Below are positions 19,822-55,892 of a stretch of 64,000 bases of DNA, one piece after another. The position numbers were made by a program, and so were the translations under genes. The notes beneath the pieces are model-generated. The model did not search any database, had not been told where the DNA came from, and saw only the letters and a program-made list of their open reading frames with translations. The stretch's first letter is position 1; each line of letters starts with the position of its first letter. Where the stretch lies: NCBI GenBank assembly GCA_017643365.1, contig JAEPNO010000002.1:95849-159848 (forward strand). Reading direction: 5' to 3'. This DNA is from Balneolaceae bacterium (GTDB taxonomy: Bacteria; Bacteroidota; Rhodothermia; Balneolales; Balneolaceae).

Positions 19822-20290
19822 GCCCGTCTCCTCGGGCGAAGACCCGAGGTCTCCTTGATTAAGCCCCAGGCGTTGTTCGGGAGACTACGGGTCAAGTATG
19901 CCCGCAGTGACCAAGTGGTAACAAGCGATGACGAAGAAAATATAACATCATCAATGCCCGTCTCCTCGGGCGAAGACCCGAGGTCTCCTTGAATAAGCCC
20001 CGGGCGTTGTTTGGGAGATCGCGGATCAGGTATGTCCGCGATGACGTGGTGGTAATAGGAGACTGCGGGTCAAGTATGCCCGCAGTGACAAAATGGTAAC
20101 AAGCGATGACGAAGAAAATATAACATCATCAATGCCCGTCTCCTCGGGCGGAGACCCGAGGTCTCCTTGAATATGCCCCAAGCGTTGGTCGGGAGATCGC
20201 GGATCAGGTTTGCCCGCGATGACGGGTGATAAAGGGAGACTGCGGGACAAGTATGCCCGCAGTGAGGAAGTGGTGACAAGCGATGACGAT
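19822..20290. repeat. REPIN-like repeat block A, three tandem macro-units
   Basis: This 560-bp gene-free stretch holds three near-identical 86-bp elements (19826-19911, 19960-20045, 20138-20223) and two extra right halves (20058-20089 and from 20235). Each element is two inverted hairpins: a left one with stem CCTCGGG and loop CGAAGA, then TCTCC, a short spacer, GGAGA, and a right hairpin (stems such as ACTGCGGG or TCGCGGA around a loop like TCAAGTATG), ending TGAC. A conserved connector (AACAAGCGATGACGAAGAAA and on) joins units. Reading frames inside are not genes. Confidence 0.9.
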
Positions 20291-39366: not shown

Positions 39367-39524
39367 GTCACCCCGGACTTGATCCGGGGTCTCCTTGGAC
39401 ATGCTCCAGGCTTTAATCTGGAGATCGCGAGCAAAGCAGTCACCTCGGGCAAAGACCCGAGGTCTCCATAAAGTTGCTCCGGGCGTTGTTTAGGAGATCG
39501 CGGGTCAAGTATGCCCGCGATGAC
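39367..39524. repeat. REPIN-like repeat block B
   Basis: One degenerate element (from GTCA 39367, hairpin CCCCGGA-cttga-TCCGGGG, TCTCC, spacer, GGAGA, broken right hairpin) is followed by an intact 86-bp element (39439-39524: GTCA, CCTCGGG hairpin, TCTCC, spacer, GGAGA, TCGCGGG hairpin, TGAC). It lies between nifJ/DHOD and the RCC1 protein gene. Nothing else is seen in this 340-bp gap except the hairpin at 39613. Confidence 0.9.
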
Positions 39525-44324: not shown

Positions 44325-44714
44325 GTCACCCCAGACTTGATTAAAACAGTCACCCCGTGCCCTTTTAAAGCCCGTCACCCCGGACTTGATCCGGGGTCTC
44401 CTTGAACCTGCTCGAGGCCTCAATCAGGAGATCGCGGATCAGGTATGTCCGCGATGACGAAATAGATATTTGGAGACTGCGGGTCAAGTATGCCCGCAGT
44501 GACAATTTAGACCGTCATGCCGTGCTTGACACGGCATCTCCAATACATACCCAGGCGGTGTTCGGGAGATCACGGGTCACCAAAGCCGGTCACCCCGGAC
44601 TTGATCCGGGGTCTCCTTGAACATGCACCGGGCTTTAATCAGGAGATCGCGGATCAGGTTTGTCCGCGATGACGGGGTGGTAAAAGGAGATCGCGGGTCT
44701 TTGCCCGTGATGAC
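44325..44714. repeat. REPIN-like repeat block C, 3' side of the GIY-YIG gene
   Basis: Left-half fragments at 44325 and 44349, intact 85-bp elements at 44374-44458 and 44589-44673, a right half at 44472-44503, an element starting GTCA 44514 with stem GCCGTG and a broken right side, and a right half at 44686-44714. The last ends with TGAC 2 bp before the GIY-YIG stop codon. Stems differ between copies but stay paired. Peptides read from it (such as GLDPGSP-like strings) are not genes. Confidence 0.9.
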
Positions 44715-44716
44715 AA

Positions 44717-45007
44717 TTAGATATAAATATCTTCCCAGAGGTCTTTCATCTCCGGGTTTATAGTCTTGATCAGTTCAATTTTCCATGCTCGCTTCCACTT
44801 CTTCACTCTCTTTTCTGCGGCAATGGCTTCGTACATTGATGGGAACTCTGTGTAGTACATCAAATCATGAACATTATATTTGCTGGTGAACTTTGATCCT
44901 TTCTCGAATTTATGTTGATAAATTCGATTGATTAAAGCCGATGTTACACCTGTGTAAAATACAGTTCGGTGTTTGTTTGCGAGTATGTACATGTATCCGG
45001 GTTTCAT
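44717..45007 (-). CDS. small GIY-YIG nuclease-family protein
   Basis: 96 residues, the usual size of stand-alone UvrC/YhbQ-type GIY-YIG domains. The motif is MYIL (6-9) with FYTG (17-20), catalytic Arg28 in INRIYQHK, and Glu65 in AAEKRVKKWKR. Such domains cut DNA by metal-dependent hydrolysis, though many stand-alone members have unproven activity. It is isolated, on the same strand as its neighbours, and boxed in by REPIN-like elements: one half-element ends 2 bp from its stop codon and another begins 48 bp before its start. This suggests it may travel with, or act on, the repeats (inference). Confidence 0.85.
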   Translation of the reverse strand: MKPGYMYILANKHRTVFYTGVTSALINRIYQHKFEKGSKFTSKYNVHDLMYYTEFPSMYEAIAAEKRVKKWKRAWKIELIKTINPEMKDLWEDIYI

Positions 45008-45054
45008 ACTATGTAAGACTCTTTGGAAGGGAAGTCCTTACAGTTTTTTTTTGC

Positions 45055-45376
45055 AGTCACCCCGGGCGTTGATAAGGAGACTGCGGGTCAAGTATGCCCG
45101 CAGTGACGATTAAAACACAAAATAAGAAAGCCCGTCACCCCGGACTCTTTCAAAGAAGTCACCCCGTGCTCGACACGGGGTCTCCATAAAGTTGCCCCGG
45201 GCCTCAATCAGGAGATCGCGGATCAGGTATGTCCGCGATGACAATTTAGAACGTCATGCCGTGCTTGACACGGCATCTCCAATACATGCCCAGGCGGTGA
45301 TTGGGAGATCGCGGGTCTTCGCCCACGATGACGAGATTGTAAATAGAGATCGCGGGTCAAGTATGCCCGCAGTGAC
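45055..45376. repeat. REPIN-like repeat block D, 5' side of the GIY-YIG gene
   Basis: A short element lacking its left hairpin (45055-45107), a left fragment (45134), intact elements at 45158-45242 (85 bp) and 45253-45332 (80 bp, stem GCCGTG on the left), and a right half ending TGAC 45376. It fills the gap between the GIY-YIG gene and the 7TMR-DISM hybrid kinase. Confidence 0.9.
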
Positions 45377-48700: not shown

Positions 48701-48855
48701 GTCTTCGCGGACTTGATCCGCGATCTCCTTACTTCCGCCCATCGTCTTCGCGGACTTGATCCGCGATCTCCTAATCAAAGCCCGAGGCATGTACAAGGAG
48801 ACCTCGGGTCTACGCCCGAGGTGACTGTTTTGTATTAGCCCGAGGTGACAGTGCT
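48701..48855. repeat. REPIN-like repeat block E
   Basis: A left half (48701-48728, stem TCGCGGA-cttga-TCCGCGA, TCTCC), an intact 82-bp element (48744-48825, same left hairpin, right hairpin CCTCGGG), and a fragment of the right hairpin to about 48850. Located between the second FG-GAP giant and its zinc-ribbon partner. Confidence 0.85.
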
Positions 48856-55814: not shown

Positions 55815-55892
55815 GTCACCTCGGGCGGAGACCCGAGGTCTCCTTGAAGATGCCTTGGGCGAAGATCAGGAGATCGCGGATTAAGTCCGGTT
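55815..55892. repeat. REPIN-like repeat block F (degenerate)
   Basis: GTCA 55815, hairpin CCTCGGG-cggaga-CCCGAGG, TCTCC, spacer, GGAGA, then a right hairpin that has decayed (TCGCGGATTAAGTCCGG) without the terminal TGAC. Lies between the HTCS gene and the second FG-GAP giant. Confidence 0.75.

Follow-up and report, generated by a model that had tools for sequence, protein, structure and literature searches.

Two superfamilies of REPs are distinguished in bacteria, the GTAG superfamily, to which the RAYT enzymes belong, and the CGTC-tagged superfamily, known from Bacteroidetes, Chlorobi and Proteobacteria, for which its authors did not find a dedicated enzyme (Di Nocera, De Gregorio, Rocco 2013, PMC3733652). 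A CGTC REP bears an unpaired CGTC tag, or its variants TGTC and CCTC, at one end of a stem–loop with a stem of 8–9 bp whose first pair is A-T, and most of the published families, though not all, have a loop of 4–5 and the tail CCA (PMC3733652). In the RAYT/TnpA-REP systems and REPINs, the enzyme gene lies between inverted REPs, gene-less pairs are dispersed, and enzyme and repeats are coupled (PMC3116915, PMC8266576). GIY-YIG enzymes are represented on the one hand by selfishly spreading homing endonucleases such as I-TevI and its free-standing phage relatives, and on the other by stand-alone proteins of the UPF0213 and bacterial Slx1-like kind. Slx1 works together with Slx4 in repair, and we know of no flanking repeats at Slx1 genes.

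The window analyzed here is a stretch of 64,000 nucleotides from the 3.77-Mb draft genome of a Balneolaceae bacterium, in which about 1 kb of palindromes surrounds a small GIY-YIG gene. The palindromes share one half-element plan, consisting of GTC, an 8-bp stem with A first and T last, a loop of 5, 6 or 9, the second stem arm and CTCC, and although the stem sequences vary between copies, their pairing is kept. At a stem score of at least 6.5 the window holds 22 half-elements in five clusters, nearly all with stems of 7.5–8 bp, while shuffled windows yielded only 2–8 matches, all types included and all weak, when the cut-off was relaxed to 6. GTC is present in all 22 halves, mostly as CGTC or TGTC and in some as GGTC or AGTC, and nearly all have both the A-T closing pair and the 8-bp stem of the CGTC superfamily; the head-to-head pairs in multiple copies that mark this superfamily are also present. 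The window palindromes are thus CGTC-tagged REPs, sharing with the published ones the GTC tag, the A-T-closed 8-bp stem, the head-to-head pairs and the mosaic intergenic clusters, and differing from them in that a GIY-YIG gene sits inside a head-to-head pair (PMC3733652). We file them in the superfamily and in none of its four families, as the CTCC tails and loop-9 halves do not match the four published consensus families cleanly (PMC3733652), and the loops of 5, 6 and 9 with tail CTCC differ from the loop of 4 and CCA of the Proteobacteria relatives. The original prediction, which called these elements REPIN-like, was therefore right in seeing palindromic repeats and wrong about their kind, since they are CGTC-tagged REPs in head-to-head pairs and not of the REPIN/GTAG kind.

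Thirteen of the 22 half-elements lie within 44374–45376. On the side of the gene's 3′-end, a half with an 8-bp stem and loop 5 (44374–44401, plus strand) stands head to head with a loop-9 half (44427–44458, minus), followed by a second loop-9 half (44472–44503, minus), a second loop-5 half (44514–44541, plus), the nearest left half whose tag points away from the gene (44589–44616, plus), and two further halves at 44642–44673 and 44686–44714 (both minus), the latter only 2 bp from the GIY-YIG stop codon. On the other side, direct reading finds a truncated left half (GTCACCCCGGGCGTTGATAA; 45056–45075, plus) 48 bp before the start codon, then a half with its tag pointing away from the gene (45076–45107, minus), which together with the half at 44589 bounds about 519 bp, and then halves at 45158–45185 (plus), 45211–45242 (minus), 45253–45280 (plus), 45304–45332 (minus) and 45345–45376 (minus). 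The predicted placement of half-elements on both sides of the gene is thereby borne out, with GATGAC ending at 44714 and GTCA beginning at 45056, and the two distances given for them, 2 bp from the stop and 48 bp before the start, are correct by direct reading. The locus is nevertheless a repeat array and not a clean REP–gene–REP unit.

Elsewhere in the window, halves of the same type are clustered with no gene at 19880–20223 (four, minus strand) and 39367–39524 (three), and single halves occur at 48797–48825 (minus) and 55815–55843 (plus). The description of the element as dispersed holds only for its halves: single halves of this class occur elsewhere in the source genome, with 24 matches to R1, a covariance model built for halves with loop 5, while good matches to the full element cluster in 36 kb around the gene and show no wide scatter. 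That REPs with the stem type of the window are concentrated in these 36 kb (19880–55843) suggests local spread or a young family. A search of Rfam returned no family, and phage records contained no match to the window locus.

The gene itself encodes a stand-alone GIY-YIG nuclease (44717–45007, minus strand) in an intact ORF of 96 codons, for which PF01541 is the sole Pfam match (57 bits, E = 1.8e-15). Seven residues of active-site type, Y7, Y18, G20, R28, H32, E65 and N84, are invariant across 34 relatives, so that the protein combines PF01541 with the conserved Y, Y, G, R, H, E and N of the GIY-YIG superfamily. Its predicted structure (pLDDT 91.9) matches Slx1, UvrC and I-TevI, with the best fold matches to UPF0213 and Slx1 (Foldseek E 5.8e-4; VIA Z 7.5 to Slx1, 6sei), and a PDB sequence search returned only the UPF0213 entries 1zg2 and 1ywl, at E 9.7e-10 to 1zg2. 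A search of NCBIfam gave no informative name. The gene's neighbour on one side is a large gene of RCC1-repeat-like type and on the other a gene for a hybrid sensor kinase. With the homing endonucleases the protein shares its fold, its active-site residues and selfish spread; in contrast to them, it is a single domain of 96 aa with no NUMOD or other targeting domain, its gene is intergenic with no intron or intein found around it, and it has its own palindromic ends and dispersed gene-less copies. A targeting domain, or an intron or intein, is characteristic of the GIY-YIG homing endonuclease class, to which the protein therefore probably does not belong.

The source genome holds other small GIY-YIG genes with surroundings of their own. 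The two others of the window gene's subfamily (L004, G000:C4:38.7 kb; L005, G000:C7:53.5 kb) are flanked by two further types of GTC-tagged repeat. Two of a different subfamily (L003:1444–1842, G000:C8; L008:1357–1891, G000:C3) lie immediately 3′ of tRNA genes. Direct repeats enclose each of the two and reproduce the tRNA terminator, at L008 together with part of the tRNA 3′-end, an arrangement that suggests another kind of targeted insertion. At a further locus (L002:849–1996, G000:C1:77.4–78.6 kb), near-identical small GIY-YIG genes stand in tandem with a 413-bp period, with palindromic terminator-like sequence between the copies.

To see the gene in its wider setting, we took the best 80 of at least 570 loci encoding relatives in 84,980 species genomes, from about 18 phyla and with flanks of up to 10 kb, scanned them for perfect hairpins with no tag assumed, and ranked the 64 possible 3-base tags. 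GTC came first, with 123 hairpins within 250 bp of the 80 genes (3.12/kb), and was 50-fold sparser on those contigs at distances above 1 kb (0.062/kb). A strict GTC hairpin lay within 250 bp of 53 of the 80 genes, compared with 50 of 895 control ORFs (5.6%; Fisher 1.8e-38) and 10 of 220 small control ORFs, while nine other tags in a looser test were found at 2–13 of the 80, at or near the control level. Because the loose hairpin test, with 6 outer pairs, missed long imperfect palindromes, a folding-based test that allows imperfect stems was added, and it was positive at 71 of 80 loci against 28 of 228 controls; at most of the remaining loci, long imperfect GTC palindromes of the GTCATTGCGAGGAGC...GCAATCTC kind are visible by eye. 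Both flanks carry strict hairpins at 39 loci, and at 25 of these the nearest two hairpins point their tags outward. Covariation in the REP alignment looks perfect, but its rows had been preselected as perfect hairpins, and for that reason the covariation counts are not used as evidence.

Individual loci illustrate the range. In Novosphingobium aromaticivorans, a clean inverted CGTC REP pair brackets the GIY-YIG gene, and in Azospirillum lipoferum (AZO_p3, L266) a REP-flanked gene lies within the suf operon, between sufB and sufC. In Neisseria gonorrhoeae (L264) the gene, which is 68% identical to its Methylomonas query and unannotated in NZ_CP119140.1, lies within a dense array of GTCATTCCCGC...GCGGGAAT repeats, which are CGTC REPs. 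We take these intergenic repeats to be dRS3/NIME, and we found no paper linking Neisseria repeats of the dRS3/NIME type with a GIY-YIG nuclease. The record NZ_CP119140.1, of 2.17 Mb, is chromosome-sized and listed as a plasmid. In Planktothrix agardhii (p1, L268), a GIY-YIG gene accompanied by GTCATTCTGAG-type palindromes has a MmeI-type restriction enzyme gene on one side and DISARM drmA on the other, and thus stands within a defence island.

Comparison of relatives for insertions, which the original prediction had called for, demonstrates that the REP–gene–REP unit is mobile as a module. The unit of Chryseobacterium oranimense measures 393 bp from REP tag to REP tag (GTCATTGCGAGG ... CCTCGCAATGAC) and lies, at what we call site A, in the gap from an RNase stop codon to the start codon of a barstar-like gene, both genes being named from sequence reading. 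Among 88 Chryseobacterium species, site A is occupied in about ten, with precisely the ends GTCATTGCG...CAATGAC, and is empty in others, in which the RNase and barstar genes are joined within −5 to +4 bp; in some species all that it holds is one REP hairpin, or a short pair of REPs from which the gene is deleted. Ten further Chryseobacterium genomes carry a copy of the unit at site B, about 7 kb away, and its homology with the site A unit begins and ends exactly at the two REP tags. No target-site duplication or strand-transfer signature is recognisable at site A. For the window's own site, no homologous region was found in G001 or G002, and next to the G014 counterpart of the neighbouring kinase gene there is no unit and no REP, the flanks being too diverged to place a junction. 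G057/G036 and G018 also differ by the insertion of a REP pair, but its junction was unclean and the case was dropped.

Within the Balneolaceae, one genus has five copies of the unit in one genome, mostly 93–96% alike and in unrelated places, together with internal-deletion derivatives in which the middle of the gene is lost and both REP ends are kept. The copy at L143 is bounded exactly by GGTC...GACC; as an empty-site test it was dropped, since its siblings differ over 1.6 kb. Other copies in that genus, of about 545 bp, have outer terminal repeats and 5-bp target duplications, so that in this genus an unrelated MITE carried the REP–nuclease–REP unit. The empty sites for L141, L144 and L140 accordingly reflect real insertions, but were set aside as evidence of REP-bounded movement because the insertion ends belong to the outer element with its terminal inverted repeats. 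These copies are a warning that not every dispersal is REP-driven. The outer element of this genus (g17; L140–L142, L144 and L146) has the terminal repeats TTGTAGATGT...ACATCTACAA together with target duplications of 5 bp. Some of its copies contain REP–nuclease–REP, and in another genome it contains a different REP pair, an instance of nested small mobile elements. The unit itself was rejected as a DDE-type insertion sequence or MITE: it has no transposase, no duplication is recognisable at site A of Chryseobacterium, and the 5-bp duplications are those of the outer MITE.

What drives the REPs was addressed in 97 related genomes, which were searched for GIY-YIG and Y1 genes and scanned with R1, a model built from REPs beside GIY-YIG genes that counts one REP class and gives at least 77 per genome at the highest counts. 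REP number follows GIY-YIG number with a Spearman correlation of 0.79 across genomes, ignoring kinship among them, and of 0.77 for genus means. A competing explanation is that a RAYT-like Y1 enzyme or another transposase of the genome mobilises the REPs and the GIY-YIG gene is a frequent passenger. The statement that no RAYT is seen holds for the window and fails for the genome, which has 4 matches to the Y1 transposase (PF01797), including one at 7.5 kb to the left of the window; Y1 genes occur in 56 of the 97 relatives, their number alone correlates with REP number at rho 0.59, and the MITE of the one Balneolaceae genus is a case of an unrelated element that does carry the unit. Yet the partial correlation of Y1 with REP number drops to 0.15 when GIY-YIG is controlled for, whereas that of GIY-YIG given Y1 is 0.66. 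Genomes reach five or more REPs in all 5 cases with GIY-YIG and no Y1, in 4 of 20 with Y1 only, and in none of the 36 that lack both a clear GIY-YIG gene and a RAYT-like gene. In the window's own family, CGTC hairpins stand beside 24 of 28 GIY-YIG loci and 0 of 20 Y1-transposase loci, the latter in agreement with Di Nocera 2013 (PMC3733652). A passenger would also not track the class of its REPs across phyla, as the nuclease does, and we regard this explanation as highly improbable. Membership of the RAYT/REP (REPtron) class is ruled out by the GIY-YIG gene, the GTC tag and the lack of CGTC hairpins at the Y1 loci: the system works like RAYT-REP and is no member of that class, having a GIY-YIG enzyme instead of an HUH/Y1 tyrosine transposase, GTC instead of GTAG, and a much smaller unit of about 390–430 bp.

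The tracking of REP class is seen in a protein tree of 106 GIY-YIG sequences, on which the flanking REP class (loop 4, loop 5 or long imperfect) needs 11 changes, compared with a mean of 24 when class labels are shuffled within phyla and 11 or fewer in 0 of 500 shuffles. One branch of 22 rows has long-type or unclassified REPs almost throughout and spans Bacteroidota, Planctomycetota, Omnitrophota, Chloroflexota and candidate phyla. Since the tree has few columns and relatives were treated as independent, we take the apparent tendency of REP class to follow nuclease clade across phyla as support and not as proof. Overall, the proposed link between nuclease and repeats is well supported, because the two patterns that would speak against it, many elements in relatives lacking the gene and genes lacking flanking elements, are both rare. 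Only four of the 97 genomes have REPs but no clear GIY-YIG gene, three of them with weak GIY-YIG matches and one only 74% complete, a count that we hold against our own reading, and at nearly all of the 80 loci flanking elements are found when inspection by eye is included. Fewer than five loop-5 REPs were found in 9 of 41 genomes with a GIY-YIG gene, in a count limited to the loop-5 class, and this too we hold against our reading.

Two further explanations leave the nuclease near the REPs while denying it a role in moving them. The nuclease could be a guest, a free-standing homing-type endonuclease landing in pre-existing CGTC REP pairs, which it would cut and into which it would be copied by recombination through the REP arms, the REPs themselves spreading otherwise. 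Other GIY-YIG enzymes are indeed homing endonucleases (PMC1564403), and gene invasion of a REP pair would give the same REP-only and REP-plus-gene states that are seen at one Chryseobacterium site. That site, though, also exists with no REP at all, none of the 36 genomes lacking both genes has REPs in number, REP count follows the gene, and the 96 aa include no NUMOD or other targeting domain; we consider a guest unlikely, if the most credible of the alternatives. Alternatively, the protein could be a host structure-specific nuclease of the Slx1 type, kept near REPs to resolve their cruciforms or limit their damage; its fold, closest to UPF0213 and to Slx1, which acts on branched DNA, speaks for this. 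Against such a housekeeping role stand the patchy distribution of the gene, with 0–12 copies per genome, the movement of copies with their REPs as a unit, and the frequency of copies degraded by stops or deletions, which is the behaviour of a selfish element, and we give this explanation very little weight.

In our preferred reading, which we consider probable, the small GIY-YIG gene and the surrounding CGTC palindromes form one minimal mobile element, in which the GIY-YIG protein is the dedicated nuclease of its REPs and scattered REPs are gene-less derivatives. Five observations are brought together by it, namely the gene–REP association, the co-variation of copy numbers, the coupling of class and clade, the REP-to-REP boundaries and the internal-deletion derivatives. 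The clean unit would be REP, nuclease gene and inverted REP over about 390–430 bp, with outward GTC tags as its exact ends, and scattered gene-less CGTC REP pairs would be non-autonomous derivatives, either units with the gene deleted or ends alone. We infer that the nuclease recognises the REP hairpin of its own class, single-stranded or extruded, and nicks its base at or by the GTC tag; the nick would set off the process by which the unit, or a REP pair, is copied or joined into a new intergenic site. A freed or copied unit would join such a site with no recognisable duplication, gene-less pairs could act as substrates in trans, and the window unit may have decayed, or grown, into the REP array around the gene. 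Cutting at the hairpin base is plausible for a structure-selective fold with an intact active site, because the predicted model is closest to UPF0213 and Slx1, a branched-DNA nuclease. To our knowledge the GIY-YIG fold does not join DNA on its own, and this, the missing duplication and strand-transfer signature at site A and the array-like state of the window locus count against the preferred reading; the nuclease is a candidate agent by which the REPs would be mobilised or maintained. More broadly, lone GIY-YIG nucleases of fewer than 110 residues may be transposase-like enzymes with hairpin REPs as ends, the whole CGTC-REP superfamily, including the Neisseria and rhizobial REPs, being their non-autonomous progeny and the system an independently evolved counterpart of RAYT-REP; on this wider proposal we are evenly divided.

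The link between nuclease and REPs is real and reaches wider than the window alone could show, and the evidence points to a small movable unit, in which gene and palindromes go together, that is found again in many bacterial phyla. We found no earlier report of a GIY-YIG–REP link in the open-access literature, subscription journals and preprints lying outside the search. Among bacterial palindromic repeats, the CGTC REPs make up one of the two large superfamilies, and the published account gives them no dedicated transposase; a candidate enzyme, together with its predicted substrate, can now be named for them, and the filled and empty sites in culturable Chryseobacterium make their origin directly testable. 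If our reading is true, it would add a GIY-YIG-based mobile element, with a very small autonomous unit, to the known REP systems, and would assign a function to a large protein family whose members now carry no annotation beyond 'GIY-YIG nuclease family protein'.
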